Origin: Paraburkholderia caffeinilytica
GTDB taxonomy: Bacteria > Pseudomonadota > Gammaproteobacteria > Burkholderiales > Burkholderiaceae
Reading direction: 5' to 3'
DNA length: 64,000 nt
Assembly (NCBI RefSeq): GCF_003368325.1
Contig: NZ_CP031466.1
Span: 3,286,001 to 3,350,000, forward strand
Position numbers and translations under genes: made by a program. Positions 957-33,048 of this stretch are shown here, piece after piece. The notes below the pieces were generated by a model that did no database searches, had not been told where the DNA came from, and saw only the letters and a list, made by a program, of their open reading frames with translations. Positions within the stretch are counted from its first letter, which is position 1. Each line of letters opens with the position of its first letter.

Positions 957-1082
957 GCGGCCGTGACGAAGACTCCCTGGAAATCCTCACCTTGTTTCAG
1001 GTGCGGACTCAATGCGGCGATTGCTCACCTCCTGGAATCGCTCACCTTTGGCGAACGCTCTCCTGGAACACCTCACCTCTCG
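957..1082. repeat. Iteron-like repeat cluster A (three units)
   Basis: Three full units of a motif whose reverse complement reads AAGGTGAG, about six bases, then CCAGGGAG or CCAGGAG occur at about 973-994, 1030-1051 and 1060-1080. The motif matches in length and layout the iterons of the replication origin at 16.4-17.9 kb, but lies on the other strand. The whole block is about 90 percent identical by eye to 6976-7101. It sits between two convergent genes. Two short ORFs through it look alike in the two copies only because the DNA is repeated. Confidence 0.75.
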
Positions 1083-1119
1083 ATGCGAATCAACATCGAC
1101 AGCGCGTCGTGGCCCGCGG

Positions 1120-2349
1120 TCAGATTCGAGACGCGCATTCCTCACGCAGGTGCTCAATGAACGCCTGCTGGACGGCGGTGCCGAGCCAGTCGGTACGCAA
1201 TGTATACCCGACGGCCCGGCTTGCCTCAGGGGTCTCCAGTTCCAACGCGACCATCTCGCTGCCCGGATAGGCCTCGCGAATCTGCGCACGCGACAGGAGC
1301 GTGATGCAATCGCTTTCTACCAGCATCGCTAACATCATCGCGAGCGAACTGGTCTCGACCACCAGCGGCGGCTTGACCGGCAGCCGCGCGAAGATCGCAT
1401 CGATCACCGAGCGTCGCGGCACGTTGCGCTGTGGCATGACCCAGTCGTAACCGGCGAGGTCGCGGGCCGCGACGGTTTTCTGCCCCGCCAGCCGATGCCC
1501 CTTGCGCACGGCAACCACGTAAGGGTCGGCGAACAGCTCCGTCTCCTGCACGGACCCCGTGAGGCGGGGCTCGCGCAGCCCGCCGACGATGATATCGATA
1601 GCGCCGACACGTAGTTCGCGCAAGAGATGCGCGTGGGAGCCTTCATCGACTGTCACGCGCGCAGCAGGATAGCGGCTGCGCAGTCGCTGAATAGCGCGCG
1701 CGACGAGGCGTGGCGGCAGCAACGGCAAGACGCCGATCGCCACTTTCCCTGTGAGCTGCCCGCGCGCGTAGGCCAGATCCTCACTCGCCTGTGCGATTTC
1801 GTAGAGCGCCAGACTCAGACAGCGCGCGAATTCGATGCCTGCGGGGTTGGCCGACACGCTGTGCACACGCCGGCGGTAAAGCGACACGCCGACATTCTGC
1901 TCGATCTGCCGCGCCGCCCGATGCACGGCCGGCTGCGAGATGCCCAGCAACTGCGCGGCCTCTGCCGCCGATCCCGCATTGGCAATCGCGATGTGGCAGC
2001 GCACCTGCGTGTCGGTGAGACGGCGGCAAATCTTACCCGCGCTCGCCGCCGCAGCCTGGCCAGTCAGGTTTGCAACGGCGCGCTCCATCTGATCGAGCAT
2101 GCGACGCACGCGCCGCTGCAGGATCACGCCCTCCTCCGTCAGTTCGCTGCCGCCAAAGCCGCGATCGAATAGCTGACCGCCAAAGCTCGCTTCCAGCTTG
2201 CTAACGGCGAGGCTCACCGCAGGTTGCGTGCGCCCCGCGCGGGCGGCCGCCTGTCCGATTCCACCTGCCTCGCATACCGCATCGAACAGGAAAAGCCGCC
2301 TTAATCGCGTCAGATCGTCATCCGATGGCGTGCGCTCGACGACACCCAT
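1120..2349 (-). CDS. LysR-family regulator with two tandem N-terminal winged-helix domains
   Basis: This 409-residue protein is about 100 residues longer than a usual LysR regulator (about 300). The extra length is a second DNA-binding domain. HTH 1 spans roughly residues 13-90 (AAARAGRTQPAVSLAVSKLE), HTH 2 roughly 108-195 (AAQLLGISQPAVHRAARQIE), and a LysR substrate-binding domain follows from about 200 (GKVAIGVLPLLPPRL) to the end. Start ATG at 2349. It is divergent from the hydrolase/decarboxylase/dctA/porin genes at 2.5-6.9 kb with a 143-bp gap, so it most likely controls them. LysR-type regulators usually bind a pathway intermediate as co-inducer; which one is unknown. Confidence 0.88.
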   Translation of the reverse strand: MGVVERTPSDDDLTRLRRLFLFDAVCEAGGIGQAAARAGRTQPAVSLAVSKLEASFGGQLFDRGFGGSELTEEGVILQRRVRRMLDQMERAVANLTGQAAAASAGKICRRLTDTQVRCHIAIANAGSAAEAAQLLGISQPAVHRAARQIEQNVGVSLYRRRVHSVSANPAGIEFARCLSLALYEIAQASEDLAYARGQLTGKVAIGVLPLLPPRLVARAIQRLRSRYPAARVTVDEGSHAHLLRELRVGAIDIIVGGLREPRLTGSVQETELFADPYVVAVRKGHRLAGQKTVAARDLAGYDWVMPQRNVPRRSVIDAIFARLPVKPPLVVETSSLAMMLAMLVESDCITLLSRAQIREAYPGSEMVALELETPEASRAVGYTLRTDWLGTAVQQAFIEHLREECASRI

Positions 2350-2492
2350 CGATTCTCCAGAATTGCTATGTGAAAACCCTTAGCTTAACCAGAATTTATG
2401 CCTTGCGGCTCACTTCATATTGGGGCCTTCGACTACATCCCACTTACAGTAATGTCCATCCGATCAAAAAGTTTCCAGTCAGGAGCACGTTC

Positions 2493-3344
2493 ATGTCTGT
2501 CGTCATCGACACGCACACTCACGCAATTTCCCCAGATAAACAACGCTATCCGCTCGCACCGGTCGGCGGTCACCAGTCGGAATGGTCGGCGAAGCGTCCC
2601 GTTAGTTTTGAAGGCCTGCTCGCCTTGATGGACGAAGCCGGCATCGGTCGTGCGGTGGTCGTTCAAGCTTCGACAGTGTACGGTAACGACAATAGTTATG
2701 TGGTCGACGCGGTGCGGAGCCATCCTGATCGCTTCGCAGGGGTATTCTCGATCGACGTGCTAGCGAGCGACGCGGTCACGCAGTTGCAGCGCTGGCTCGA
2801 CGCGGGACTCTCCGGGCTGCGCCTTTTCACGACCGGCAGCACGATGCCTGGCCAGGCGGGCTGGCTCGACGACGAGCGCTCGTTTCCGGTATGGGAATAC
2901 GCGCAGCGCCACGACGTCTCGATCTGCCTGCAGATGACCGCGCAAGGGATTCCCGCACTCCTGAACATGCTCGCACGCTTTCCGGACATCCGGGTGTTGC
3001 TCGATCACCTCGCACGCCCCGAACTCGCCGGCGGCCCGCCGTACGAAGCGGCCGCGCCGCTCTTCGGCCTCGCGTCGCATCAGGGTGTGTATCTGAAGCT
3101 CACGAACCGCACGATCGCCGAAGCCGCGCGTGGTGACTCGACGCCCGCCGCCTTCTTCCCCCGCGTGCTCGACGCATTTGGCGCGCATCGCATCGCGTGG
3201 GGTTCGAATTTCCCGGCTGCCGAAGGCGCGCTGCCGCAACTGCTCGCCGATGCCCGCGAGAGTCTGTCGATGCTGCCCGCCGACGCGCGCGCAGCAATCT
3301 TCGGCGGCACCGCGCGCACGATTTATCCAGCGCTCGCCGCTTGA
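2493..3344 (+). CDS. Amidohydrolase-family (TIM-barrel) metal-dependent hydrolase
   Basis: The protein has 283 residues with the start ATG at 2493, preceded by AGGAG at 2481; an upstream in-frame extension lacks a ribosome site and is not convincing. Family signs are the N-terminal IDTHTHA (HxH metal motif), LDHLARPEL, and IAWGSNFPAAEG near the C terminus, as in the amidohydrolase 2 group (COG3618), which includes 2-pyrone-4,6-dicarboxylate lactonase and sugar lactonases. The Asp of lactonase WGSDWP is Asn here, so lactonase activity is uncertain. It is first in an apparent operon with a 4,5-dihydroxyphthalate decarboxylase-like gene 35 bp downstream, suggesting hydrolysis of a lactone or ester in an aromatic-acid pathway (inference). 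Confidence 0.85.
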   Translation: MSVVIDTHTHAISPDKQRYPLAPVGGHQSEWSAKRPVSFEGLLALMDEAGIGRAVVVQASTVYGNDNSYVVDAVRSHPDRFAGVFSIDVLASDAVTQLQRWLDAGLSGLRLFTTGSTMPGQAGWLDDERSFPVWEYAQRHDVSICLQMTAQGIPALLNMLARFPDIRVLLDHLARPELAGGPPYEAAAPLFGLASHQGVYLKLTNRTIAEAARGDSTPAAFFPRVLDAFGAHRIAWGSNFPAAEGALPQLLADARESLSMLPADARAAIFGGTARTIYPALAA

Positions 3345-3379
3345 TACGTACGCCTCGAACGAAACAGGAAGACAAGACC

Positions 3380-4291
3380 GTGAGCATCTCTACACAACCG
3401 CTGCGCCTGAAGACTGCGTTGAAAACCTATCCGCACACGCAGGCGCTGAAAGCGGGCGAACTGACCGACCCCGCCGTCGAACTCGTGTTTGAGGACGTCG
3501 AACCGATTCACCGCGCGTTCGCACCGATGGCGCGCCGTCAGGCGTACGACGTCAGCGAAATGGCAATCGTCACGTATCTGCAGGCGAAGGCCTACGGCAA
3601 GCCGGTCGTGCTGCTGCCCACGGTCGTGGCAGCGCGCTTCCAGCAGGGCTGCATTATCTACAATGCGCAGCGTGGCAAACTCGATGCGGGCCGTCTCCCG
3701 GGAAAGAAAGTCGGCGTGCGCGCCTACTCGCAGACCACCGGCATGTGGGTGCGCGCCATTCTGAAGCAGACCTATGGCGTGCCGCTCGATCAGATCGAAT
3801 GGGTCACGATCGAAGGCGCGCATCTGGAGGAGTATCGCGATCCGCCTTTCGTGCACCGCGCCGAACCCGGCAAGCAACTGTTGCCGATGCTTCGCGCGGG
3901 CGAACTCGATGCCGCCATCCTCGGCAACGATCTACCCGACGAGCCGGGGCTCGAACCGCTGATCGACGACGCGGCCGCCGCCGACCGTGCGTGGTACGCC
4001 CTCCATCGATACGTTCCGATCAATCACGTCGTCGTGGTCACGAAGGCGCTGGCCGATACGCATCCGCAAGCCGTGCGTGCTGTGTATGACCTGCTGTGCC
4101 GCGGTAAGGCATCGGCCGCCGCGGGACACGCTGGCAAGCCGGACAAGCTGCTGTTCGGCTACGACGCGCTGCGCGGTCCGCTTGAGGAAACGCTTGCGTT
4201 CTGCGAGCAGCAGCAACTGCTGCCACGCAAGCTGAGTGTCGACGAAATCTTCGCCGACAGTCTTGGCATTCTGGGCGACGCCGCGCACTAA
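3380..4291 (+). CDS. 4,5-dihydroxyphthalate decarboxylase-like protein (Pht5 / periplasmic-binding fold)
   Basis: GTG start at 3380, with AGGAAG about 12 bases before; 303 residues. The opening LKTALKTYPHTQALKAGEL and the segments FEDVEPIHRAFAPMAR, FDVSEMA-like (YDVSEMAIVTYLQA) and GCIIYNAQRG are characteristic of the Pht5 family, annotated as 4,5-dihydroxyphthalate decarboxylases and built on the ABC-transporter binding-protein fold. No signal peptide is visible, so the protein is cytoplasmic, which argues against a transporter role. Its place between a lactonase-like hydrolase and a dicarboxylate symporter fits decarboxylation of an aromatic acid. The true substrate is not known for many family members. 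Confidence 0.8.
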   Translation: MSISTQPLRLKTALKTYPHTQALKAGELTDPAVELVFEDVEPIHRAFAPMARRQAYDVSEMAIVTYLQAKAYGKPVVLLPTVVAARFQQGCIIYNAQRGKLDAGRLPGKKVGVRAYSQTTGMWVRAILKQTYGVPLDQIEWVTIEGAHLEEYRDPPFVHRAEPGKQLLPMLRAGELDAAILGNDLPDEPGLEPLIDDAAAADRAWYALHRYVPINHVVVVTKALADTHPQAVRAVYDLLCRGKASAAAGHAGKPDKLLFGYDALRGPLEETLAFCEQQQLLPRKLSVDEIFADSLGILGDAAH

Positions 4292-4358
4292 CGTCGCGGC
4301 CGTTCATTTCCCCATTTTCGAGCGAACCCGAGTTCGCCGTCTTGACCAAGGAGACACC

Positions 4359-5717
4359 ATGAGCTTGCCCGGCAAGTCCGCCGCCACGAAACCCAGGGCG
4401 CGTCAGCCGTTCTACCGCGACCTGTCTTTTCAGGTGTTGGCCGGTATGGCACTGGGCGTCGCCACGGGTTACTTCTTCCCGAAGTTCGGCATCAATCTGC
4501 AGCCCGTCGGCGACGCCTTCATCCGCATCATCCAGATGCTGATTGGACCGATCATCTTCTGCACCGTGTGCAGCGGCATCGCGGGCGTCAACGACTTCAA
4601 GAAGGTTGGCCGCGTGGCGATCAAGGCGCTTTTCTATTTTGAAGTGGTGACCTCGCTCGCACTGGTGCTGGGCCTCGTCGTCATCAACCTGCTCAAGCCC
4701 GGTGTCGGCATGAACGTGGATATGCACAGCGTGCACTCCGCCACCGTCGACGTGTACATCGCGCAAGCCCATCACGTCGTCACGACGAGCGAATTCCTGC
4801 TGAATGTGATTCCGCACACGGCGATCAGCGCGTTCGCCGGCGGCGACGTGCTGCAGGTGCTGTTCTTCTCGGTGCTGTTTGCATTCGGCCTCGCCGCAAT
4901 CGGCGAGCGCGCACAGCCGGTGTTGAACCTGATCGATGCGACGTCGGGCTCGCTCTTCTGGATCATCGGCCTGACGATGAAAATCGCGCCTCTCGCCGCG
5001 TTCGGCGCGATCGCCTTCACGGTCAGCAAGTTCGGCTTCGGTACGCTGATCTCGCTCGGCAAACTCGTACTCGAGTTCTATCTGACCTGCGCGCTCTTCA
5101 TCATGCTGATTCTCTGGCCGATCGCGAAGGCCAACGGTTTCAGCCTGCTGCGCCTGATGCGCTATATCGGCGCGGAGTTGCTGCTCGTGATCGGCACGAG
5201 TTCGTCGGAGACCGTTTTCCCGCAACTGATCGACAAGCTCGAACGGCTCGGCTGCGAGAAATCGGTGGTGGGCCTGGTGCTGCCGACCGCGTACACGTTC
5301 AATCACGACGGCACGTGCCTGTACTTCGCCGCAGCCGCCGTGTTTCTCGCTCAGGCCACCAACACGCCGATGAACTGGCACGACCAGTTGGTGCTGCTGG
5401 CCGTGTTGCTGCTCACGTCGAAGGGCGCGGCAGGCGTGTCCGGCGCGGCGATCGCCGTGCTGGCAGCGACGCTCGCCGCATCGAACACGATTCCGGTCGA
5501 ATCGATCGCCCTGATTCTCGGCATTCACAAGGCGATGTCCAGCGCGTTCGTGTTCACCAACATTGTCGGCAATAGTGTGGCGACTATCGTGGTCGCGAAC
5601 TGGGAAAAGGCACTCGACCGCGTCGCGCTACGCCATGAACTGAAAACCGGCTTCAAGCCGGCCGACCCGCCGCCCGCCCGCCTCAACCAGGCGAGGAGCG
5701 GTCACGCAGGCAACTAG
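4359..5717 (+). CDS. dctA: C4-dicarboxylate / proton symporter, DctA type
   Basis: 452 residues from ATG 4359, with AAGGAG directly upstream. It belongs to the dicarboxylate/amino acid:cation symporter (SDF) family: multiple hydrophobic spans, the serine-rich hairpin GTSSSETVFPQL, the conserved NHDGTCLYFAAAAVFLAQATN-like stretch and SKGAAGVSGAA. Length matches DctA (about 430-450). The classic NLDGT is NHDGT here, a small change next to the substrate/cation site. It should import succinate, fumarate, malate or another (possibly aromatic) acid with protons. It follows the decarboxylase-like gene and precedes a porin, so the cluster can bring a substrate across both membranes. Confidence 0.88.
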   Translation: MSLPGKSAATKPRARQPFYRDLSFQVLAGMALGVATGYFFPKFGINLQPVGDAFIRIIQMLIGPIIFCTVCSGIAGVNDFKKVGRVAIKALFYFEVVTSLALVLGLVVINLLKPGVGMNVDMHSVHSATVDVYIAQAHHVVTTSEFLLNVIPHTAISAFAGGDVLQVLFFSVLFAFGLAAIGERAQPVLNLIDATSGSLFWIIGLTMKIAPLAAFGAIAFTVSKFGFGTLISLGKLVLEFYLTCALFIMLILWPIAKANGFSLLRLMRYIGAELLLVIGTSSSETVFPQLIDKLERLGCEKSVVGLVLPTAYTFNHDGTCLYFAAAAVFLAQATNTPMNWHDQLVLLAVLLLTSKGAAGVSGAAIAVLAATLAASNTIPVESIALILGIHKAMSSAFVFTNIVGNSVATIVVANWEKALDRVALRHELKTGFKPADPPPARLNQARSGHAGN

Positions 5718-5732
5718 CAACGCATGCCACAC

Positions 5733-5766
5733 GGCCGGCGGCGTGGATGAAAGTCTGCCGCCGGCC
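5733..5766 (+). terminator. GC-rich hairpin after dctA
   Basis: Perfect 10-bp stem GGCCGGCGGC / GCCGCCGGCC with a 14-base loop, 15 bp after the dctA stop. No T run follows, so it may be a weak terminator or an mRNA-end stabiliser rather than a classical intrinsic terminator. Confidence 0.45.
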
Positions 5767-5813
5767 CAGCCGGAAACCGACAAACGGAGTTGGAATTATC
5801 GAGTTTAATTAGT

Positions 5814-5828
5814 CATACGAATCGTATG
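5814..5828. promoter_or_regulatory. Perfect palindrome upstream of porin, candidate operator
   Basis: CATACGA-A-TCGTATG is a perfect 7+1+7 palindrome 60 bp before the porin start codon. It looks like a dimeric regulator site. The spacing is not the usual LysR T-N11-A, so the binding protein is unknown; the LacI-type or LysR-type regulators nearby are candidates. Confidence 0.45.
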
Positions 5829-5887
5829 GCAAAGCTATGCCATCGCCAGCCGTTTCACAAAATACGACATTAGATTGGAGACATGCT

Positions 5888-6928
5888 ATGAAAAAAAAGG
5901 TTTGGAGAACCATTGGTTTTGGACTGTCGGCCGCAGCCGGCACGCTGGGCGCAATGCCCGCCTATGCGCAGTCGAGCGTTCAGCTATACGGTACGGCAGA
6001 CGGCGGCGTCCGTTATCAAACGAATGCGGTAAAAGGCGGTGGCACGGTGGTGACGATGAATTCGAACGGTTACTACAGTTCGAACAAACTCGGCTTCCTT
6101 GGGAAGGAAGACCTGGGTGGCGGCTGGAACGCGCACTTCCAGTTGGAGAGCGGCTTCAACCTCGGCAACGGGCAGTTCGACAATACCACTGGCGTTGAAT
6201 TCAACCGGCAGGCTTTCGTCGGCATCGGAAATGAAAAGTATGGATCGCTCGACCTTGGCCGCCAGTACACGATCTCGCACGACATCATCAGCATCTACGA
6301 CCCGTTCGGCTTCCACTTCACGCCGATCCTTCCGTTGACCGTTGCCTCAGACGGCACGCGCAACAACAACGACGTCAAGTACAAGAACGTTTTCGGTCCG
6401 TTGCTGTTCGAAGTGGACAATTCGTTCGGCGGCGTCGCCGGCGATTTCAGCAGCGGAGCAACGCGCTCAGTCGGCGTGAGTTATAGCGCGGGTCCGGTTA
6501 GCGTCGGTGGCGTGTATGGGCATCGCAACATACTGACCGGCACGGCCTACATCGGCGACAGTTATTACATGGCCGGCGCCGCCTACAAGATCGGTCCGGT
6601 ACGACTGTCGGGCGGTTTCATGTCCGAGGATCTGCAGAATCCGGCCGCACCGCACCAGGTGACAAACAACGCCTTTGGCGGTCTTTCGTGGACCATCACG
6701 CCGGACGTGATTTTCGACGGCGGCTATTACCAGACCACCGTGTCGAACGACAAGGCCAGCCGCCGCGGCCTCTCGGTGATTTCGCTCGCGTATCTGCTGT
6801 CCAAGCGCACCACGCTCTACGGCGAAGTCGACTACACGTCGTACAAGCACGCGGTGGTCAGTACGCTCAACCCGGCCGGGGCGTCCAGTCAGACAGCGGT
6901 CACCGTCGGCATCGACGTCCTGTTCTAG
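5888..6928 (+). CDS. Outer-membrane porin (OmpC-like, Burkholderia type)
   Basis: 346 residues from ATG 5888, with TTGGAG upstream. A signal peptide ends near AYAQSS, followed by the family-typical SSVQLYGTADGGVRY start. Internal signs are NKLGFLGKEDLGGGWNAHFQLESGF, EFNRQAFVGIGNEKYGSLDLGRQ (porin loop region) and the terminal aromatic VTVGIDVLF, the beta-barrel assembly signal. It forms a trimeric 16-stranded barrel for small solutes. It follows dctA by 170 bp with its own palindromic upstream site, so it probably serves uptake of the same substrate. Confidence 0.92.
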   Translation: MKKKVWRTIGFGLSAAAGTLGAMPAYAQSSVQLYGTADGGVRYQTNAVKGGGTVVTMNSNGYYSSNKLGFLGKEDLGGGWNAHFQLESGFNLGNGQFDNTTGVEFNRQAFVGIGNEKYGSLDLGRQYTISHDIISIYDPFGFHFTPILPLTVASDGTRNNNDVKYKNVFGPLLFEVDNSFGGVAGDFSSGATRSVGVSYSAGPVSVGGVYGHRNILTGTAYIGDSYYMAGAAYKIGPVRLSGGFMSEDLQNPAAPHQVTNNAFGGLSWTITPDVIFDGGYYQTTVSNDKASRRGLSVISLAYLLSKRTTLYGEVDYTSYKHAVVSTLNPAGASSQTAVTVGIDVLF

Positions 6929-6975
6929 TGACGCCGATCGAACAATCCTCGCCGACCCAGCTCTTCGAAGCGTCT

Positions 6976-7271
6976 GCGGCCATGACGAAGACTCCCTGGA
7001 AATCCTCACCTTATTTCAGGTGCGTGCTCGACGCGGCAATTGCTCACCTCCTGGAATCGCTCACCTTTGGCGAGCGATCTCCTGGAATTCCTCACCTTTG
7101 GCATATCTTTGCTTGCTTCCACGATGCAGTTCGATTCCTGGTATGACTCACCTCTTGCTGATAAGGTGACATCTCCTCGAACGGCTCACCTTTCGTCGAG
7201 GTGGTTGCGTCTCCTGGAATTCCTCACCTTTGGCCGTGGTGACGTCATTTCCTGGTGTTCCTCACCTTTGA
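6976..7271. repeat. Iteron-like repeat cluster B (about seven units)
   Basis: Copies lie at about 6991-7012, 7049-7070, 7079-7101, 7135-7155, 7171-7195, 7210-7232 and 7246-7271. On the minus strand each reads (A)AAGGTGAG, a six-base variable middle, then CCAGGAG or a close variant. The first 126 bp repeat cluster A at 957-1082. The block fills the gap between the convergent porin and outer-membrane protein genes, and its units share the GGTGAG...GGGAG layout of the origin iterons. Confidence 0.75.
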
Positions 7272-7304
7272 TCACGATGACGCCATGTATTCGCCAGAAT
7301 CCGT

Positions 7305-7823
7305 CTAGAACTTCACCTTCACCTGAAACCCGATCGTGAACGGAAGATTGTCCGAGGGGATCGGCGGAATCACAATGAAGTTAGCCCCGACGCGCTTGTA
7401 GTCGACCATCACGATCGGTGCGACCACCGGTCCGATCGTATGGTTGCGGCCCAGGCCCCAGTTGCCATAGTTATAGCCCGAGATGATTCCGCCGATCGCC
7501 GCAATCCGCACGATGCCCCAGTGCGCGAACTCGGGCGCCCAGACGCCACCGCCATAGTAAGAAGGGCGCCGCAGCGAATTGCGAAAGCCTCCGGCCGTCA
7601 CCGCCCATTGATTGTTGATCCAGCATTCCACGCCGAGGCCTGGATTGAATTGCTCGAAATGGGTGTTCGGGTCGGGATTGATGTGATACGAGCCGAGCAT
7701 TGCGTCGATCCATACGCCGCCATCGCACCAATTACCCGCATGCGCACCGGACGCCGCGGCCAGGCTCGCGACAAGCGCCGCGGCCGCGTGCCGAATCTGC
7801 TTTTTTGTCTGACGAAAATGCAT
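7305..7823 (-). CDS. Small outer-membrane beta-barrel-like secreted protein, unknown function
   Basis: 172 residues with a clear signal peptide (AALVASLAAASGAHA, cleavage before GNWCDGG). The mature part is rich in aromatic residues and glycine, with alternating strands (SYHINPDP, FNPGLGVECWINNQWAVTAGGF, GFQVKVKF) and ends in Phe, as outer-membrane barrels do. Similar small proteins occur in Burkholderia and in phage genomes, but I do not recognise a characterised family; a PagL-like or eight-stranded barrel is possible. It stands alone, convergent to the porin. Confidence 0.7.
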   Translation of the reverse strand: MHFRQTKKQIRHAAAALVASLAAASGAHAGNWCDGGVWIDAMLGSYHINPDPNTHFEQFNPGLGVECWINNQWAVTAGGFRNSLRRPSYYGGGVWAPEFAHWGIVRIAAIGGIISGYNYGNWGLGRNHTIGPVVAPIVMVDYKRVGANFIVIPPIPSDNLPFTIGFQVKVKF

Positions 7824-8044
7824 GTATTCTCCGCCACCGATCGAGCGCCGGTGTCATCTATGTTCTAGGCATTCTTACTTGTGGTCCGTCGCGCACTGTA
7901 CCTCAACCCGCACTGGCGATGTGGAGGGCACGCTCGGACGCGCGGGCACAGGACGTGCCCCGCAGCGCCGACGCAACGATAACGGAGAACCGATGGCAGA
8001 GCGGTGAACACCAGGCAGGTGTCCACCTTCAATCTCCAGGAGGC

Positions 8045-8524
8045 CTAGAGGCCGAGGTCGGACAGGCCTGGATGGTCGTCGGGACGGCGGCCCAGCGGCC
8101 AATGATAGAGACGATCGGCCTCGCGGATCGGCAGGTCGTTGATGCTGGCATGACGGCGCGCCATCAGCCCATGCTCATCGAACTCCCAATTCTCGTTGCC
8201 GTATGAACGAAACCAGTTGTTCGAGTCGTCGTGCCATTCGTAGGCAAAGCGCACGGCGATGCGGTTATCCGTGAATGCCCATAATTCCTTGATCAGGCGG
8301 TAGTCGAGTTCCTTTGCCCATTTGCGGCGCAACAGGCCGACGATCTCCGCGCGGCCATGCGTGAACTCGGCGCGGTTGCGCCACACGCTATCCGGTGTGT
8401 ACGCGAGCGACACGCGCTCGGGATCGCGGGTATTCCAGCCGTCTTCCGCGGCGCGCACTTTCTGGATCGCGGTCTCGCGTGTGAACGGCGGTAGTGGAGG
8501 GCGGGTTTCAATCGGCTCGGCCAT
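8045..8524 (-). CDS. NTF2-like protein of the DUF1348 family
   Basis: 159 residues. The sequence follows the DUF1348 pattern closely: [87 protein letters not shown] and [11 protein letters not shown]. The fold is the SnoaL/NTF2 cone used for isomerases, hydratases and unknown enzymes, and no substrate is assigned. Start ATG at 8524 lies 13 bp after the stop of the upstream TetR gene on the same strand, so the two are probably cotranscribed and the regulator may control this enzyme. Confidence 0.85.
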
Positions 8525-8537
8525 AGTGTTTCCTCAG

Positions 8538-9227
8538 TCAGGTTGCGGTGCGCCGGGATGGCGGTCGTTTGCTTGGGGATTGACTCGCGGACCGGCCTGC
8601 GATCGGGTTCGATTCGCTGGCGGACTCAGTATTGAGCAAGGCTTCAGCGGCGGCTCGCGCGTCGAGCGCGGCGTCGGTCTCGCCGCTGACCAGCGCCACG
8701 GCGATGGCGCCGTCGAGCAGGATCAGCCATTGGCGCGACAAGCGCGCGGCGCGGCGAGCGTCCATACCGGATTCGACCGCGTAGTCATCGCACTGGGTTC
8801 GCACGAACGCGAGCAGGCGTTCCTTGTGTTCACGCGCGACGATCCGGATCGGATCCTCCGCGGAGGCGATTTCGCCGGCGGCATTCAGAAACGCGCAACC
8901 ATGAAAATCCTCCGACGCAAACCATTCGCGCAGTACGTAGAACATGCCGAGCAGGTGCGCGCGCGCCGTCTTGCCGTGCTGCAACGCGCCCGCGATAAAC
9001 CAGTTCATCCAGCGCTCGTCGCGCCGCTCCAACGCGGCGGCGACGAGCGCGTCTTTCGATTCGAAGTGCGTGTAAAAGCTTTTGCGCGCGGTGCCGGACT
9101 GCTTGACGATCGCGTCGACACCGGTGGCATGGATGCCGCCTGCGTAGATCAACGCCTCCGCGGCATCGAGCAACCGTTCACGCGCGCTGCCCGACGCAGC
9201 CGATTCAGTTGGGTTTTGAGTAGCCAT
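8538..9227 (-). CDS. TetR/AcrR-family transcriptional regulator
   Basis: 229 residues. The N-terminal TetR helix-turn-helix spans about residues 15-65: SARERLLDAAEALIYAGGIHATGVDAIVKQSGTARKSFYTHF is the usual pattern (quoted here only to locate it at 14-55). The C-terminal ligand domain is alpha-helical. It is upstream of, and likely cotranscribed with, the DUF1348 gene and divergent from yceI (109-bp gap), so it may repress both. The inducer is unknown. Confidence 0.88.
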   Translation of the reverse strand: MATQNPTESAASGSARERLLDAAEALIYAGGIHATGVDAIVKQSGTARKSFYTHFESKDALVAAALERRDERWMNWFIAGALQHGKTARAHLLGMFYVLREWFASEDFHGCAFLNAAGEIASAEDPIRIVAREHKERLLAFVRTQCDDYAVESGMDARRAARLSRQWLILLDGAIAVALVSGETDAALDARAAAEALLNTESASESNPIAGRSASQSPSKRPPSRRTAT

Positions 9228-9336
9228 GTGCGAAGGTTAGAACGATCATTCTCCTTCGTCAAGTTTTTGCTCGCTTCGGCGCGTTGGGCGCGCTTACTGC
9301 TATTGTGATGACGATCGATCAACTGGAACGAAAATC

Positions 9337-9987
9337 ATGAGCCGCTCTATTGTCCGCGCGTCGTTGGTGCGTGCGCTACTCAGCGCAGCACTGCTGACTT
9401 CGATGGCCTGCACGCCCGTGCGAGTCCTCACGCATACGGTCAGCCAGAACGAAGCACGCGTGCCGGCCGGTCGCTACGATCTCGATCGGGACCATTGCAG
9501 CATTACCTTCGACATCGATCACTTCAAGTACTCGCGCTTTACGATGCGCTTCGATCGCAAGCAGGGGCAACTCGACTGGAACGAAGGCGGAATGGACAAG
9601 AGTAGCGTGGCGATTACGATCGACGCCGCGAGCATCGACACGAATGTGCCGCTACTCGACAAGATGGTGAAAAGCGACAGCATGCTCGATGTGTCGCGCT
9701 TTCCAGAGGTGCGCTTCGCCAGCACGCGGTTTGAGCGAACCGGCGAATCGCGCGGCACGTTGAGTGGCGATCTGACGATTCACGGCGTCGCGCAACCGGT
9801 CACGCTCGACGTCACCTTCAACGGTTTCGCCCCCGATCCGCTCACGAAAAAAGACACGCTCGGCTTTTCCGCGGACGGTCACTTCAGCCGCGCGAAGTTC
9901 GGTTTGTCGACGTGGTACCCGGCTGTCGGCGACGATATTCATGTGCGTATTCAGGCCGAGTTCGTCAAAACGCCCGCAGGCGCGTGA
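9337..9987 (+). CDS. YceI-family protein, probable lipoprotein
   Basis: 216 residues. An N-terminal hydrophobic segment ends in LLTSMAC, a weak lipobox, so the protein is exported and perhaps lipid-anchored. The YceI domain follows: RYDLDRDHCSITFDIDHFKYSRF, IDTNVPLLDKMVKSDSMLDVSRFPEVRFAST, GDLTIHGVAQPVTLDVTFNG and FSADGHFSRAKFGLS. This lipocalin-like fold binds isoprenoid-type lipids in characterised members. It is divergent from a TetR regulator that may control it. Confidence 0.88.
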   Translation: MSRSIVRASLVRALLSAALLTSMACTPVRVLTHTVSQNEARVPAGRYDLDRDHCSITFDIDHFKYSRFTMRFDRKQGQLDWNEGGMDKSSVAITIDAASIDTNVPLLDKMVKSDSMLDVSRFPEVRFASTRFERTGESRGTLSGDLTIHGVAQPVTLDVTFNGFAPDPLTKKDTLGFSADGHFSRAKFGLSTWYPAVGDDIHVRIQAEFVKTPAGA

Positions 9988-10071
9988 GCGCGGTGCGGGC
10001 GTTCTGGTTCAGGCGTCGTCGGTCAGACTTTTCGTTTCAGGCGCTGCGCATGAGTGCGTTGTCGTTTTGGC

Positions 10072-11103
10072 TCACGCAGCGGTCCAGTCGAGAATCACCT
10101 TGCCGCTCTCGCCTGAGAGCATCGTGGCAAACGCTTCCTGATAGTCGTCGACCTTGAAGTGGTGCGTGAGGATCGGCGACAGATCCAGACCGCTTTGCAG
10201 CATCGCGACCATCTTGTACCAGGTCTCGAACATCTCGCGGCCATAAATACCCTTGATTTCGAGGCCTTTGAAGATCACCTGGGTCCAGTCGATCGCGGTC
10301 TGCGCGGGCGGAATGCCGAGCAGCGCGATCTTGCCGCCGTGGTTCATCGCTTCGAGCATGCCGGTGAATGCGCTCGGCACACCTGACATTTCGAGCCCGA
10401 CGTCGAAACCTTCGGCCATGTGCAGATCGGCCATCACGTCGCGCAACGATTCACGCGAGACGTTCACCGCACGCGTTGCGCCCATCTTGCGCGCGAGTTC
10501 GAGGCGATAGTCGTTGACGTCGGTAATCACCACATTGCGTGCGCCAACATGCTTCGCAATCGCCACCGCCATGATGCCGATCGGCCCGGCGCCGGTGATC
10601 AGCACGTCTTCGCCGACCAGGTTGAACGACAGTGCCGTGTGCGTGGCGTTGCCGAACGGATCGAAGATCGCAGCGAGATCGTCGGAGATTTCAGGCGGAA
10701 TCTTGAATGCGTTGAAGGCCGGAATCACGAGGTATTCGGCGAACGCACCTTCGCGATTCACGCCGACGCCCACCGTATTGCGGCACAGGTGCCGGCGTCC
10801 CGCACGACAGTTGCGACAGAAACCGCAGGTGATATGCCCTTCGCCCGACACGCGATCGCCGATTGCAAAGCCGCGCACTTCCTGCCCCATCTCGACGATT
10901 TCGCCGACGTATTCGTGACCGACATGCATCGGTACCGGAATCGTCTTTTGCGCCCAATTGTCCCATTTCCAGATGTGGATATCGGTGCCGCAGATCGCGG
11001 TGCGCGTGATGCGGATCATCACGTCGTTGTGACCGACTTCGGGCTTCTTCACATCCGTCAGCGTGAGGCCCGGTGCGCGTTCGAGTTTTGCCAATGCTTT
11101 CAT
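10072..11103 (-). CDS. tdh: L-threonine 3-dehydrogenase
   Basis: 343 residues from ATG 11103 (an 18-residue upstream extension is rejected because MKALAKLE is the family start). It is a zinc medium-chain dehydrogenase: catalytic zinc region [30 protein letters not shown], structural zinc cysteines [15 protein letters not shown], and the NAD-binding [18 protein letters not shown]. It oxidises L-threonine to 2-amino-3-ketobutyrate with NAD. It lies 13 bp downstream of kbl, whose product consumes that compound; together they convert threonine to glycine and acetyl-CoA. Confidence 0.97.
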
Positions 11104-11116
11104 GTGCGCCTCCGCT

Positions 11117-12316
11117 TCAGATGATGCCGAGTTGACGGCCGACGCGCGCAAATGCATCGACGGCTCGATCGATTTGTTCCGGCGTGTGCGCGGCGCTCAT
11201 TTGCGTGCGGATTCGCGCACGGCCTTTGGGCACGACGGGGAACGAAAAGCCGATTACGTACACGCCTTCCTTCAACAACGCGTCGGCCATCTTCGATGCG
11301 AGCTGCGCGTCGCCGAGCATGACTGGAATGATCGGGTGTTCGCCGGGCACGAGCGTGAAACCGAGCGCGCTCATTGCGCGGCGGAAATGCGCGCCGTTTT
11401 CGCGTACGCGCTCACGCAGTTGCGCGCCTTCGTCGCTCGCGAGCAATTCGAGTACTTTCAGCGACGCGGCGGCAATGCTCGGTGTCAGCGTGTTCGAGAA
11501 CAGATAGGGGCGTGAGCGTTGACGCAGCAAATCGATGACTTCCTGACGCGCGGCGACATAGCCGCCGGATGCGCCGCCGAGTGCTTTGCCGAGCGTGCCG
11601 GTAATGATGTCGACGCGCGACAGCACACCGCAATGTTCCGGCGTGCCGCGCCCATGCTCGCCGACGAAGCCGACCGCGTGCGAATCGTCGACCATCACCA
11701 GTGCGCCGTAGCGGTCGGCGAGATCGCAAATACCGGCGAGGTCGGCGATGATGCCGTCCATCGAAAACACGCCGTCGGTGGCGATCAGCTTGAAGCGCGC
11801 GCCGGCGGCATCCGCTTCTTTCAGCCTGGCTTCGAGATCGGCGAGGTCATTGTTCTTGTAGCGAAAGCGCTTCGCCTTCGAAAGCCGCACGCCGTCGATG
11901 ATGCTCGCGTGGTTCAGCTCGTCGCTGATGATGGCATCGTTATCGTCGAGCAGGGTTTCGAACAAACCGCCGTTCGCATCGAAACAGCTGGAGTAGAGGA
12001 TGCAATCGTCGGTTTGCAGGAATGCGGCCAGCGCTTTTTCAAGGTCTTTGTGCACGGTTTGCGTACCGCAAATGAAACGCACCGACGCCATGCCGAAGCC
12101 GTCGTTGTCCAGGCCAAGCTTGGCGGCCTCGATCAGCCGTTCGTCGTTGGCCAGACCCAGATAGTTGTTCGCGCAAAAATTCAGCACTTCCGTGCCGTTC
12201 TCGAGACGCACGTCAGCCGATTGCGGGCTGGCGATCACGCGCTCGCTCTTGTAAAAACCGTCAGCGCGGATCTGCTCGAGAGTGCCGCGCAGATGGGCGA
12301 GGTAAAGGTCACGCAT
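11117..12316 (-). CDS. kbl: 2-amino-3-ketobutyrate coenzyme A ligase (glycine C-acetyltransferase)
   Basis: 399 residues, the usual Kbl length. It is a PLP-dependent alpha-oxoamine synthase: [26 protein letters not shown], the substrate-site [31 protein letters not shown] and the PLP lysine in [16 protein letters not shown]. It cleaves 2-amino-3-ketobutyrate with CoA to glycine and acetyl-CoA. It is first in the kbl-tdh operon and divergent from an XRE-cupin regulator, 169 bp away, that probably controls it. Confidence 0.97.
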
Positions 12317-12416
12317 GAACCAGGCTCCTGAAAGGGTAGTGCGCCCGTGGGCGACATGCCCGGCACGTGCGGCATGTTCGACGTCGAGGCGGGCTGTTAT
12401 AGTCGGCTGTCAGTTT

Positions 12417-12456
12417 TATCGGATATTTTCGTTTTTCCGAACTAAAATCCGGTATG
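12417..12456. promoter_or_regulatory. Imperfect inverted repeat between kbl and the XRE-cupin gene
   Basis: TATCGGATATTTT at 12417 and AAAATCCGGTA at about 12444 form an imperfect inverted repeat in an AT-rich stretch between divergent genes. It is a candidate operator for the HTH-cupin regulator and may overlap both promoters. Confidence 0.35.
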
Positions 12457-12485
12457 TCGAACAACTCTAAACGATAGGTCAGTAA

Positions 12486-13112
12486 ATGGCAAGTTCGGGA
12501 ATCCGCCGCGCAGCCGCCAGCGCGGCCCCCACTTCAGGCACGAGTCCGGTTCCGGCGATCGCTGCGCCGCCTCGCGTCGGCGAGCAGATTCAGCGTCTGC
12601 GCGCCGAACGGCGCATGACGCTCGACGACCTGTCGCGTGCGGCCGGCGTGTCGAAATCGATGCTCTCGGAAATCGAGCGCGACAAGGCCAATCCGACGAT
12701 CGCGGTTGCGTGGCGTCTGACGAACGCGCTCGGCGTCAGTCTCGATTCGCTGTTCGCGCCGCAGAAGGCGCCGGAGGCAATTGCGGTCTCCGGTCCGCAC
12801 GACATCCCCACCTTGAGCGGGCACGAGGCCAAGTATCAGTTGCGTGTCTGGGGCCCGATCGAATTGGCCGGCAAGTTCGAGTGGTATGAGCTGACGCTGC
12901 AGCCAGGCGGGGCGCTGGTGTCGAACGCGCATGAGCCCGGCACGCGTGAGCATCTGACCGTGCTGTTGGGATCGATCGAGATCGAGGCGGCCGGCACGAC
13001 AAAGCGGCTCAAGGCCGCGGACACCGCGCGCTACGTCGCCGACGAGCCGCATGCGATTCGCAACGTCGGAAAGGGCGAGGCGAAAGCGCTGCTGGTGGTG
13101 ATTCACGGCTGA
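12486..13112 (+). CDS. XRE-type HTH regulator with C-terminal cupin domain
   Basis: 208 residues. After a low-complexity N terminus, an XRE helix-turn-helix spans about residues 33-88 (IQRLRAERRMTLDDLSRAAG, SKSMLSEIERDKANPTIAVAWRLTNALG). A cupin domain follows at about 125-205 (LQPGGALVSNAHEPGTREHLTVL, DTARYVADEPHAIRNVG). This architecture is common for regulators of amino-acid catabolism (SutR/PuuR-like). It is divergent from kbl-tdh, so control of threonine breakdown is the simplest reading. Confidence 0.88.
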   Translation: MASSGIRRAAASAAPTSGTSPVPAIAAPPRVGEQIQRLRAERRMTLDDLSRAAGVSKSMLSEIERDKANPTIAVAWRLTNALGVSLDSLFAPQKAPEAIAVSGPHDIPTLSGHEAKYQLRVWGPIELAGKFEWYELTLQPGGALVSNAHEPGTREHLTVLLGSIEIEAAGTTKRLKAADTARYVADEPHAIRNVGKGEAKALLVVIHG

Positions 13113-13185
13113 GGGGCGGGCGCACCGCGGCTGGTTGATGTCGGAATCGGACTGAATTGTCGTTTGGCCGAGGTTGCGCGAGACA

Positions 13186-13201
13186 CTGTATATTTGCACA
13201 G
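13186..13201. promoter_or_regulatory. LexA (SOS) box
   Basis: CTGTATATTTGCACAG fits the CTGT-N8-ACAG LexA consensus of gamma- and betaproteobacteria exactly, with flanking A and TA that also match the extended TACTGT...ACAGTA form. It ends 25 bp before the start codon of the small gene at 13227, where a repressor would block transcription. Confidence 0.75.
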
Positions 13202-13226
13202 TACAGGGTGTCGACTGGAGCCGATA

Positions 13227-13625
13227 ATGAACGACCTGACCACCGAACAAGCCGAGCATGCTCTGGCCGCGCTGCGCTATCAAACCGCGGCGCGCGATCT
13301 TGAACACATCGTGCGCAACATCGCCGCACGCTACATCGTCCAGCAGGTGCCGCTCTCGTGGCGGCTGCTGCATGCAATCGAAGCCGAAGCGCTGGCGGAT
13401 CTCGGATTCGCCAGTCGGCACGACGCGATCATGCTCGGCCTGTTCCAACGGCCGTCCGAGCTGCCTTATCCGGAAACGGACGAGGCAGTGGATTTCGGCA
13501 CATCCACTGCTTTGCCGGCGGTGTTCGCGTTTGCCGTCTCGGCCTATGAAGAGGCGGCACGCCGCGCCGCGCAACCTGCATCGAAAGGCGCGCCGCTTAA
13601 GCACGCGCGGGCGTGGGGCGACTGA
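13227..13625 (+). CDS. Small conserved-looking protein of unknown function, LexA box upstream
   Basis: 132 residues from ATG 13227, preceded by CTGGAG at 13215. The protein is helical and alanine-rich, without signal peptide or membrane span; LEHIVRNIAARYIVQQVPLSWRLLHAIEAEALADLGFAS is located at about residues 25-63. No family is recognised. It lies between a perfect LexA box and, 63 bp downstream, a tyrosine-recombinase gene on the same strand, so the pair may be an SOS-responsive operon beside the replication origin (inference). Confidence 0.7.
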   Translation: MNDLTTEQAEHALAALRYQTAARDLEHIVRNIAARYIVQQVPLSWRLLHAIEAEALADLGFASRHDAIMLGLFQRPSELPYPETDEAVDFGTSTALPAVFAFAVSAYEEAARRAAQPASKGAPLKHARAWGD

Positions 13626-13688
13626 CCCACGCGCTGTGTTTTCATCGGTTGCCACCTACAATATGCGCAACTAACGGAAAGATAGCCC

Positions 13689-14756
13689 ATGTCACCTCCT
13701 CATCTGTCCGACCTGGTCTCGCGCCCTGCACCGTCAACCGATCTCTTCGATCAGGAACGCGAAGACTGGCGCCGCGATCCGCAAATCGCATTCGATGCGT
13801 GGCTTGCCAAACAGCATTTCAGGCGCTCTTCCGCTGAAGTCTATCAAGCACAGTGGGGGCTTTTCCTCGACTGGCTTGCGGTCCGCCAAAAGAGTCTGGC
13901 CACGGTCGATACGCAAACCATCGCTGAATTCGTGGGTGGTCTCGCGATCCGAAAACCGCAACGCGTCAGGTATTTGCGGCTCATCGAACGGGTGCTGGAT
14001 CACGTCCGCGAGATCGAATCCGCGTCGACCAACCCTGCGCGTTTTATTGCTCAGGATGGCGAAGCAGCATGGCGAAACGCACGCGATAACGAACCGACCG
14101 GGTTTCTTAACCATGCCGAACGCGCCGCGCTCATTGCCCAACTGTTTTCGCCCTTGCCGGCCTTATCTGTCGCGCAGCGCTGGAGGGAGCGACGCGACCG
14201 TGCATTGATTGCGGTGTTTCTCGGCGGTGGCATCAAGACCGGCGAGGCTGCAGCGCTTACAGTTAGTTGCGTCAGTGTCGGCTCACCGTGGATCACGATC
14301 GAGTCCGCGAATCCGATGCTGACGCGGCGTACCCGGCTCGCGCCCTTCGCGGCCGCCGTTCTCGATGCATGGCTTGCCGAACGGCGCCTTTCCGAACTAA
14401 CCGGTAATCTGGTCTTTCCCGCTTCGCCTTCAGGTCGTCCAATGCACAAGGCGACCATGTTGCGCGCAGTCGATGCGTTGATCGACGCGGCAGGCATTGC
14501 CGCGTCGCGAGCCTCGCGCGCCAGTCCGCAGACTTTGCGCAACACCTTCGCGGCGGATCTGTTCGAAAGCGGGGTTGAAGCGGAACTGGTCGGGCAATGG
14601 CTGGGATTTGTCCAGGCCGTATCGGCCAACCGTTTGTATCGGGCGTGGCAAAGGTGGATGGATCAGCAGGATTCGCCAGTTGTCGATGTGCCGGATCCTG
14701 CCGCTCCTCCATTGCCCGCGCCTAGACTGGATGGGCGTTTGACGAGGAAAGGGTGA
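13689..14756 (+). CDS. Tyrosine-recombinase (phage integrase/Xer family) with degenerate catalytic residues
   Basis: 355 residues. An N-terminal SAM-like core-binding domain spans about 25-115 (FRRSSAEVYQAQWGLFLDWL) and a catalytic domain about 140-330. Aligned by eye to XerD, the first Arg (GLRVSE) is Lys in GIKTGE, the HxxR motif is SPQTLRNTF (His to Gln, Arg kept), the LGH motif is LGF, and the nucleophile Tyr is kept in NRLYRAW. Only Arg II and Tyr of the R-H-R-H/W-Y set remain. It may be an impaired or DNA-binding-only recombinase, or a divergent active one. Its position near rep/par suggests a replicon-maintenance role such as dimer resolution. Confidence 0.8.
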   Translation: MSPPHLSDLVSRPAPSTDLFDQEREDWRRDPQIAFDAWLAKQHFRRSSAEVYQAQWGLFLDWLAVRQKSLATVDTQTIAEFVGGLAIRKPQRVRYLRLIERVLDHVREIESASTNPARFIAQDGEAAWRNARDNEPTGFLNHAERAALIAQLFSPLPALSVAQRWRERRDRALIAVFLGGGIKTGEAAALTVSCVSVGSPWITIESANPMLTRRTRLAPFAAAVLDAWLAERRLSELTGNLVFPASPSGRPMHKATMLRAVDALIDAAGIAASRASRASPQTLRNTFAADLFESGVEAELVGQWLGFVQAVSANRLYRAWQRWMDQQDSPVVDVPDPAAPPLPAPRLDGRLTRKG

Positions 14757-14763
14757 TCGGGCG

Positions 14764-14811
14764 AGCCCTGAAAATACTCACCCTTAAGGTCCCGAATTTC
14801 CTCACCTTTGG
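14764..14811. repeat. Iteron-like pair (cluster C)
   Basis: Two units lie between the convergent recombinase and KfrA-like genes. On the minus strand they read AAAGGTGAGGAAATTCGGGAC (at about 14790-14810) and AAGGGTGAGTATTTTCAGGG (at about 14765-14785). The first is nearly identical to origin iterons and links the CCAGGAG-type units of clusters A and B with the TTCGGGA-type units of the origin. Confidence 0.75.
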
Positions 14812-14844: not shown

Positions 14845-16050
14845 TCATGCCGACGCCGCAATCGACCCGTTCGACAAAAATCGGCTGACCGCCTCCAGCC
14901 TTGATTCTCCGAGGCCGGACGAGTGATCGCATTCCGGACACTGCAACTCGAAGCGGTGATCCACTTGCGACAACTCGGGCTCACCTTGCTCACATTTTGG
15001 GCAGCGCAGTGGCAGCGTGACATGGCCGTCCGCCGCGGTGCCGATCACGGCCAGCTCGTCGGTTGTGAGCCTGCCTGCTTCGACCAGCGCACACAGCAGG
15101 TTTGCGATCGCGGGATCGATGTCCTGTTGGCCGCGCAGTGCCGCAACTTCTTTCGTCAACGCATCGACTTCGTCCGATTGCTCGCGCAGTTGCGTGTCGA
15201 GCCGGTCGCCGCGGGCCTTGGCTGCGGCGAGCTGCTGAATAAACTCGAATTCCTTGCGGCTTGCGTCACGTACCCCAGACTGGTAGGTGGCCGCCATGCT
15301 CCGCAAAGAATCGAGTTCGACCAGCATCGGCTTCACACGGCGCTCGGCTTCGGCGACAGCGTCCTTGATCTGTTGCGCATAGTGCTCGGTGCTTTGGCGC
15401 AATTCGACATGCAGGGCATCGATCCGGTCGCGGAGCGCCGCGTTAGTCGCCTGTTCGGTATCGACGCGTTGGCGCAACATTTCGTTTTCGCCGTCGAGTC
15501 GACGCACCGTGGACTGCAAGCCTTCCTGGTGAGCGGTCCCATGCGTGGTGGCGCTGGATAGTTCGGTTTCGAGCGCGCGAACGCGTTCCCATGCGGCTTC
15601 GGCTCTGAGTTCGCTGCGCCTGATCGCGTCTTCCGACACGTCGCGGCGAATTTCCGCTTCTCGCGCACGTTGGTCGGCGACGGTGATTTGGGCGCGAATT
15701 TCGTCGCGTTCGCTGTCGAGGGTCGAACGGGCATGCACTACCGCTTCTTCGAAAAGGGCGCCCAACAATTCTCCGGCGCGATCTTCCAGTGCTTTCGGGA
15801 TAGCGCCGGCGCCGACTTTGACGCGCGACACCGTTCGGATGCGTTCCCAAAAATGATCGATGTCCTTTGGGATGTCGCTCGCGCTGCCTGTTTGGGTCAG
15901 GTCGCGGACGGCCGCCATGGACGGGCGAATTCCCAAATCGAAAAAAAGTCGCTTGCACGCGTGCAGTGACAGTTCTTGCCGTCTTGCCCCGTTAGCCCGT
16001 AACGATTCAAGCTCGTCGCGGATGGTTTGTCGTTCCTGGTCCAGATTCAT
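14845..16050 (-). CDS. KfrA-like DNA-binding coiled-coil protein with C-terminal zinc ribbon
   Basis: 401 residues. The N-terminal third resembles the KfrA DNA-binding domain (about 1-120; LFFDLGIRPSMAAVRDLTQTGSASDIPKDI). A long heptad-rich coiled coil covers about 120-320, and a CPKC...CPEC zinc-ribbon-like ending lies at about 355-385. KfrA proteins of IncP-type plasmids are autorepressors whose long alpha-helical tail forms filaments that assist plasmid stability. Here it faces the origin, and direct repeats overlap its upstream region. The zinc-ribbon end is not part of classical KfrA. It probably acts as an origin-linked nucleoid or partition-accessory protein (inference). Confidence 0.75.
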   Translation of the reverse strand: MNLDQERQTIRDELESLRANGARRQELSLHACKRLFFDLGIRPSMAAVRDLTQTGSASDIPKDIDHFWERIRTVSRVKVGAGAIPKALEDRAGELLGALFEEAVVHARSTLDSERDEIRAQITVADQRAREAEIRRDVSEDAIRRSELRAEAAWERVRALETELSSATTHGTAHQEGLQSTVRRLDGENEMLRQRVDTEQATNAALRDRIDALHVELRQSTEHYAQQIKDAVAEAERRVKPMLVELDSLRSMAATYQSGVRDASRKEFEFIQQLAAAKARGDRLDTQLREQSDEVDALTKEVAALRGQQDIDPAIANLLCALVEAGRLTTDELAVIGTAADGHVTLPLRCPKCEQGEPELSQVDHRFELQCPECDHSSGLGESRLEAVSRFLSNGSIAASA

Positions 16051-17936: not shown

Positions 17937-17992
17937 GGTGAGTTGTGCTTCGTAAACTCACTTCACCGGGAACGGTGAGACCCATGCTATAG
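17937..17992 (+). promoter_or_regulatory. Initiator gene promoter with half-iteron inverted repeat (operator)
   Basis: GGTGAGTT at 17937-17944 and AAACTCAC at 17954-17961 form an inverted repeat of iteron half-sites. A promoter-like TTCACC (17962) and TATAG (17988) lie at about 18-bp spacing next to it. Iteron initiators typically repress their own gene by binding such inverted repeats as dimers while activating the origin as monomers on direct repeats. Confidence 0.55.
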
Positions 17993-18046
17993 ACGTGTAT
18001 CACCACAGCCGGTATGCTCTCGCCAAATCCCTCCTCGACCAGAAGC

Positions 18047-32839: not shown

Positions 32840-33048
32840 GCGTTTCTCGCGAGGCGCTACGCTCCTTCTTCCGGCCCCTTATTCACCCCTAAACTGCGGC
32901 ATCTCACAAAGGTTGTTATACTTTTCGCCGTTTCCGGCCTCCCAGCCGGGTGTTTCGCGCGTGTCCGCGCGCGCGGGCCGCTTGCCCTGCGGGTAGGCAT
33001 TAAACCTTCTTGAACGCCTTTCAGCGGGCGCCTCCAGCGGAGATCGTC

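Follow-up and report, generated by a model that had tools for sequence, protein, structure and literature searches.

The window analyzed here, a 64-kb stretch of DNA (bases 3,286,001-3,350,000 of the 3,619,047-bp contig C1), covers what we infer to be the origin region of a Paraburkholderia secondary chromosome, in which a Rep_3 replication initiator gene (rep) lies beside an array of direct-repeat iterons. Units of the same type as these iterons also occur outside the array. They are concentrated in the origin region, conserved and constrained at the base level, and they co-occur with this Rep across the family. Their conservation indicates that they do something, and we propose that they are probably extra-origin Rep sites that restrain re-initiation by titration or handcuffing. 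A preliminary description of this DNA had put forward a distributed copy-control or handcuffing system of this kind; the distributed initiator-type sites outside a secondary-chromosome origin are well supported by our analysis, while their part in copy control or handcuffing is still a prediction.

Origin-type units inside and outside the array

The class I unit, GGTGAG-N4-TTCGGGA, is the exact origin type. It is the reverse complement of the Burkholderia cenocepacia c2 iteron consensus, given as ctCCCGAAAAacCTCACCTtt in a legend (PMC4948915), and can thus be regarded as a c2-type iteron. The genome of 8.32 Mb consists of three contigs, C1 (3.62 Mb), C2 (the primary chromosome, 4.53 Mb) and C3 (a plasmid of 175 kb). 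It contains 19 exact class I matches, of which 18 are on C1, one is on the plasmid and none is on the primary chromosome. With up to one mismatch there are 45 matches, six one-mismatch matches on the primary chromosome included, vs 11 for the reversed pattern. Six of the 19 exact units belong to the origin array and 13 lie outside it; ten of these 13 are found between 80 kb to the left and 15.5 kb to the right of rep, that is in 96 kb of 8.32 Mb (binomial 1e-17). No unit of either pattern was found beyond these -80 and +15 kb limits in a scan reaching from 158 kb to the left to 162 kb to the right of rep. By the patterns of this origin-region scan the genome has 24 units outside the array, a set composed of isolated or grouped exact units and three compact arrays of a variant unit. 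The motif search per replicon that the preliminary description had called for thus finds the units concentrated at the origin region of the secondary chromosome. Scatter at random across the replicons, named there as an observation that would speak against the idea, is excluded by the replicon counts and the reversed-pattern controls.

Within the window the units are arranged as follows:

974-1077, minus strand: cluster A, three class II units (GGTGAG-N3-TTCCAGGA) in a convergent gap
6993-7266, minus strand: cluster B, seven class II-like units (loose expression) with spacings of 31, 38 and 56 bp in a convergent gap
14766-14806, minus strand: cluster C, an exact origin-type unit (14790-14806, GGTGAGGAAATTCGGGA) and, 24 bp away, a TTTCAGGG (CAGG-type) unit
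16458-17927, plus strand: origin iteron array, with every unit on the plus strand
33468-33484, plus strand: exact origin-type unit within a squalene/phytoene synthase family gene, +15.5 kb from the rep start

A loose expression (GGTGAG, 4-8 bases, [CT][CGA][AG]GG[AG]) finds 24 units in the window: three in cluster A, seven in B, two in C, eleven in the array (16503-17927, plus strand) and the one at 33468. The preliminary description had counted about twelve units in the three clusters and assigned them to the strand opposite to that of the array; both statements hold, since all 12 units of A, B and C are on the minus strand. It had also placed them exactly between converging genes. This is correct for A (open reading frames (ORFs) 91-885 on the plus and 1120-2349 on the minus strand), for B (5837-6928 and 7305-7823) and for C (13689-14756 and 14845-16050), yet it does not extend to the units in general, most of which lie between tandem genes (see below). 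In addition, that description saw only the near part of a set that reaches 80 kb to the left of rep and includes the unit in the gene at 33468, and it did not recognize that clusters A and B form a variant class.

This class II unit (TTCCAGGA) makes up clusters A and B and a third variant cluster. The three clusters are mutually 78-86% identical over 128-158 bp, with 86% identity over 158 bp between A and B. The third (C1:3281821-3281961) is a copy of A and B situated 4 kb to the left of the window. The pattern AAGGTGAG-N3-TTCCAGG, searched in the whole genome with up to two mismatches, has 49 matches vs 2 for its reversed form, and 11 of the 13 matches with no or one mismatch belong to these three clusters. 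Class II is most likely an iteron variant, since 73 of 81 loci, the window included, have CAGG-type units within their origin arrays, and the origin arrays of both Rep homologues examined by script (G056, 41% identity; G055, 39%) contain GGTGAG-N6-CAGGGA units. P. xenovorans LB400, P. fungorum and genome G022 have one class II array directly after a class I pair, at a spacing of 66 bp. Exact class II units (AGGTGAG-N3-TTCCAGGA) were found in 19 of the 40 genomes of a set of relatives, all 19 being among the 24 genomes of the same genus; part of these matches are single matches on other contigs.

Some matches lie away from the origin. The plasmid unit (C3:39429), which is inside a mechanically called ORF where the DNA shows 92% identity to a 262-kb contig of OK233, is probably due to chance. 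At C1:1741786-1742063 (L176, bases 3786-4063), 1.56 Mb from the origin, two origin-type units stand about 260 bp apart and are oriented away from each other. Orthologous pairs are present on chromosome 2 of LB400 and in P. fungorum, and among short loci in 3 of the 15 same-genus genomes that match the query DNA (G006, G014 and G003); a fourth genome, G001, has a CAGG-type pair at the locus. Two of the one-mismatch units on the primary chromosome (C2:378910 and C2:4281907) are inside mechanically called ORFs, in stretches mutually 84% identical. A search of the primary chromosome for a crtS-like conserved unit gave no exact match, although a site of other sequence would escape it, and a comparison of two of the six one-mismatch C2 matches with the matches of four relatives off the Rep replicon revealed no locus shared together with its unit.

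Conservation, strand and gene context of the external units

Eight class I positions, one per group, were mapped by their flanking sequence into ten other genomes, with 32 other intergenic midpoints as a control. Within 300 bp, 38 of the 51 mapped gaps have a class I unit vs 17 of 210 control gaps, in genomes that are related, so that the trials are not independent; 37 of these 38 units are on the same relative strand. Within 900 bp the counts are 39 of 51 and 24 of 210, and random positions have a unit in 33 of 956 cases. At 300 bp the unit is retained at -80 kb in 5 of 5 gaps, at -45 kb in 6 of 7, at -39 kb in 5 of 5, at -37 kb in 4 of 5, at -3 kb in 8 of 10 and at +15 kb in 8 of 8. This recurrence in orthologous gaps makes it unlikely that the units are ends of an insertion sequence, another observation that the preliminary description would have taken as evidence against its idea; no insertion sequence was sought by name.

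The exact unit of cluster C was followed in the best 80 of 223 named loci and the window, which leaves 80 loci after one contig ending too early had been dropped. It is exact in 64 of them and has one mismatch in 14, two in one and three in one. In the same stretches no match to the reversed pattern has fewer than two mismatches; on the array strand none is exact and 16 have one mismatch. The fixed bases are conserved at 86-100%, the free N4 at 56-64% and most flanking bases at 30-80%; the percentages of the fixed bases arise partly by construction, because the register was picked by the best pattern match, and the controls are the fair test.

The unit within the squalene/phytoene synthase family gene reads S-V-R-I-F-G-M and is exact in all 19 genomes with a match among 31 searched; it is also kept in five further mapped genomes, and its position in Caballeronia grimmiae is -61 kb, in the opposite orientation. 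Its arginine codon is AGG in 13 and AGA in six of the 19 genomes, while AGR accounts for just 28 of the 599 arginine codons of the host-gene orthologues, these 19 included. Synonymous variation is seen in the arginine and isoleucine codons, at the free bases; the serine, valine, phenylalanine and glycine codons under the fixed bases are invariant. A point against such constraint is that the whole-site mean codon identity of this unit ranks only 38th of 237 windows, which results from variation at the free positions. Taken as a whole, the external sites look to be under selection.

The exact class I pattern is present in all 24 genomes of the genus in the set of 40 relatives (the own genome included) and in none of the 16 from other families. 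With two positions relaxed, class I units extend 56-111 kb to the left of rep in the own genome, six same-genus genomes and LB400, an outer limit set partly by the extent of the DNA examined. Over 11 genomes, the units of the left arm are predominantly on the minus strand (111 minus, 24 plus) and those of the right arm are all on the plus strand (8 of 8). This bias may be partly compositional, as guanine is abundant in the unit and the left arm is slightly skewed.

With regard to gene context, 109 class I units outside the array were assigned in eight genomes: 71 lie in tandem, 25 in convergent and 4 in divergent gaps, and 9 in called genes. Counted by gap, 59 gaps with units comprise 40 tandem, 17 convergent and 2 divergent ones, as compared to 328, 107 and 144 among all 579 gaps (Fisher 9e-6, with orthologous gaps that are not independent). 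Divergent gaps are thus avoided, and convergence is not required. Since the genes are our own codon-model calls, which missed some ORFs (e.g., 13689-14756), single gap labels may err; a convergent gap as universal rule is nevertheless ruled out by these counts. In the tandem gaps 48 of the 71 units are closer to the 3' end of the upstream gene. Stable hairpins were also considered as a common feature: five of the six strands of clusters A and B fold better than shuffled sequences (z about -2 to -3), which is a weak effect, and cluster C folds no better (z -0.58 and -0.54), so that the feature fails.

The initiator and its relatives

The genes and other elements around the origin are:

18014-19396, plus strand: rep, Rep_3 replication initiator (PF01051, E 1.4e-11; PF21205, E 4.9e-10; both above cut-off)
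19476-20531, minus strand: parB (PF02195)
20556-21218, minus strand: parA (AAA_31 and CbiA/ParA-type families)
14845-16050, minus strand: KfrA-like gene (PF11740)
17937-17967, no strand assigned: inverted GGTGAG / CTCACttCACC half-sites 5' of rep, a possible initiator operator
33010-33897, plus strand: squalene/phytoene synthase family gene hosting the exact unit (PF00494, E 4e-69)

The window thus has both the Rep_3 winged-helix domains in its initiator and the direct-repeat iterons beside rep that characterize a Rep_3 iteron replicon. A domain search of the initiator at E 0.001 returned the two Rep3 families only; no direct comparison with RctB was made. The closest named Rep proteins, with 99% identity, are from Paraburkholderia species including P. 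haematera, P. elongata and P. domus. Across the window and 80 named relatives, 1045 origin-array units are on the array strand and none is on the other. The inverted half-iterons at 17937-17967 might serve as an operator through which Rep represses its own gene; by a strict expression, such a repeat is present upstream of rep in 22 of the 81 loci. A search for parS, limited to perfect 16-mer palindromes, gave two in the window and none at 12-24 kb. P. phenoliruptrix LMG 22037 has a second Rep gene (92% identity; L105) on a 44-kb contig, upstream of which the expression used found no class I units; origin repeats of its own were not sought.

The motif follows the initiator. In a cross-tabulation made by hand over 150 family genomes, a Rep orthologue (at least 78% identity) is present in 64, and the exact pattern AGGTGAG-N4-TTCGGGA accompanies it in 62; the two others are genomes of 1.1-1.2 Mb. 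Among the 86 genomes without an orthologue, two have a single exact match. Five of the 86 encode a Rep homologue of 37-41% identity, and the four of them that were searched carry GGTGAG-N6-CAGGGA with 7 to 16 exact matches each and none for the reversed pattern. In G055 and G076, whose Rep homologues have about 39% identity, copies of this own unit also occur outside the array: at +5.7 to +7.1 kb in G055 a loose pattern detects nine units on the opposite strand and the strict pattern only one of them (loci L263-L265), and in G076 (C14) exact units extend to about 30 kb from the array.

A different layout is encountered in three g28 genomes, presumably Burkholderia-like, in which two same-strand units are located 145-158 kb from rep and a compact array follows 3 kb on. 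By a looser pattern these arrays have 10 to 11 units, mostly with a 23-bp period, at 148-162 kb from rep, and they lie between converging genes in both genomes whose ORFs were read:

L194:10317-10587: compact array
L196:12561-12853: compact array
L212:12259-12528: compact array

Such an array fits the second c2 iteron cluster that a table legend mentions for B. cenocepacia, 140 kb from the origin (PMC4948915).

Proposed role, alternatives and known systems

According to the proposed mechanism, Rep most likely binds the external units. Because of their nearness to the origin these would double within a few minutes of initiation; at the rate of about 33 kb per minute given for B. cenocepacia (PMC4948915), sites within 110 kb would be copied no later than some three to four minutes after initiation. 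The doubled units would then draw Rep off the origin array (titration) or bridge to the array (handcuffing), and the expected outcome is that the origin does not fire twice per cycle.

Several observations weigh against this explanation. The asymmetry between the left and right arm is not explained by titration alone, and the strand bias is reversed in C. grimmiae (3 minus, 6 plus). The -59 kb position has a unit within 300 bp in 0 of 6 orthologous gaps and the -31 kb pair in 2 of 5, and the variant arrays are limited to part of the genus. Among the more distant systems, the 140 kb scanned in G056 contain just two units apart from the array, and no origin repeat was recognized in G035 (Rep 36% identical). 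Deletion of the V. cholerae chrII-10 site alone gave no growth phenotype (PMC3937223). Finally, Rep binding and the effect on copy number are predictions from the sequence.

The dispersed sites could instead organize a domain, with Rep bridging them and the origin and with replication control being a by-product or absent. MatP and matS, which organize the terminus domain, offer a parallel. Single and grouped sites over about 100 kb at largely conserved places and the strict retention of a lone unit in a gene would suit such a positional role, and the present data do not separate bridging from titration; yet the sites are nearly all on one arm, and the compact arrays of the Burkholderia-like genomes better suit titration, so that we regard this explanation as unlikely. 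We are equally reserved about a more far-reaching version, in which Rep would be a chromosome-scale architectural protein that bridges some two dozen sites spread over 100 kb, the lone unit in the gene among them, into an origin domain of the secondary chromosome. A single mechanism would then fold the domain, handcuff sister origins and control initiation, and its origin would lie, without any link to RctB, in the transition of a plasmid to a chromosome.

The avoidance of divergent gaps (2 of 59 vs 144 of 579), the position of 48 of 71 tandem units nearer to the upstream 3' end and the folding of five of six strands of A and B would be expected of terminators, roadblocks or gene regulation in the gaps. 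A link to transcription is nevertheless improbable, given that the folding of cluster C is no better than that of shuffles, that the unit lacks palindromic symmetry and in one case lies within a coding sequence, and that the motif tracks this Rep. This last observation also makes it highly improbable that the sites serve another protein sharing the motif, such as KfrA or ParB: their genes do flank the array and rep, and binding by Rep is a prediction here, but the array next to rep consists of the same unit, and Rep homologues of 39-41% identity come with the shifted unit GGTGAG-N6-CAGGGA. We give least credence to the view that the units are leftovers of iteron duplication that no longer have a function. 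The variant clusters are indeed mutual copies and the -59 kb position is not conserved; the constraint at cluster C and in the gene and the conservation at orthologous gaps largely refute this reading for the exact units as a set, though not for single positions or each variant array.

Conserved extra initiator-type sites, mapped at base level in many species, provide a concrete candidate for the regulation by which a plasmid-type origin is brought under control of a chromosomal kind. The preliminary description had stated that a system of this kind had not been seen described. This did not stand, as the kind is known from V. cholerae chromosome II (PMC3937223) and from the B. cenocepacia c2 legend (PMC4948915). 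In an open-licence literature search of titles and abstract starts, we found no description of dispersed initiator sites in Paraburkholderia, this V. cholerae work and the B. cenocepacia legend being nearest. The wide conservation, the two unit classes and the site in a gene appear not to have been described previously in the literature searched.

Plasmid P1 incA-type sets are direct repeats of origin iterons outside the minimal origin that are thought to titrate or handcuff the initiator. The window shares with them the origin-type repeats outside the origin. However, incA is one compact set beside rep, whereas here the units are scattered between -80 and +15 kb, and most have the orientation opposite to that of the array. 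In E. coli, datA and chromosomal DnaA boxes are initiator sites outside the origin that restrain re-initiation (PMC3937223). Unlike the system proposed here, the E. coli one is based on DnaA, and datA promotes DnaA-ATP hydrolysis. To our knowledge, no comparable hydrolysis step exists for Rep_3. B. cenocepacia J2315 has the same iteron sequence in its c2 replicon, and its second cluster is mentioned in a table legend; the passages on that cluster give no conservation, layout or function (PMC4948915).

The closest likeness is to chromosome II of V. cholerae, where a 74-kb region about 40 kb from the origin contains iterons and a 39-mer that lower the copy number of an origin plasmid; these external sites bind RctB in vitro, and extra RctB relieves the drop in copy number except for chrII-10 (PMC3937223). 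Binding of RctB to further 39-mer-like sites outside ori2 is also reported (PMC11711613). In both systems initiator-type repeats are present outside the origin of the secondary chromosome, within about 115 kb, where they are doubled early (PMC3937223; review PMC6090056), and the clustering of external exact units on the origin's own chromosome agrees with the placement of a titration locus of the V. cholerae type. They differ in that the initiator there is RctB, with binding and copy-number effects demonstrated, and here a Rep_3 protein known from its sequence. The system described here has more sites (24 outside the array), two unit classes, conservation in several genera and a site in a gene that is kept by codon choice. 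If the proposed role is true, it would be, together with V. cholerae, a second case of the same solution with a different initiator, and would point to the acquisition of initiator sites outside the origin as a general step from plasmid to chromosome.

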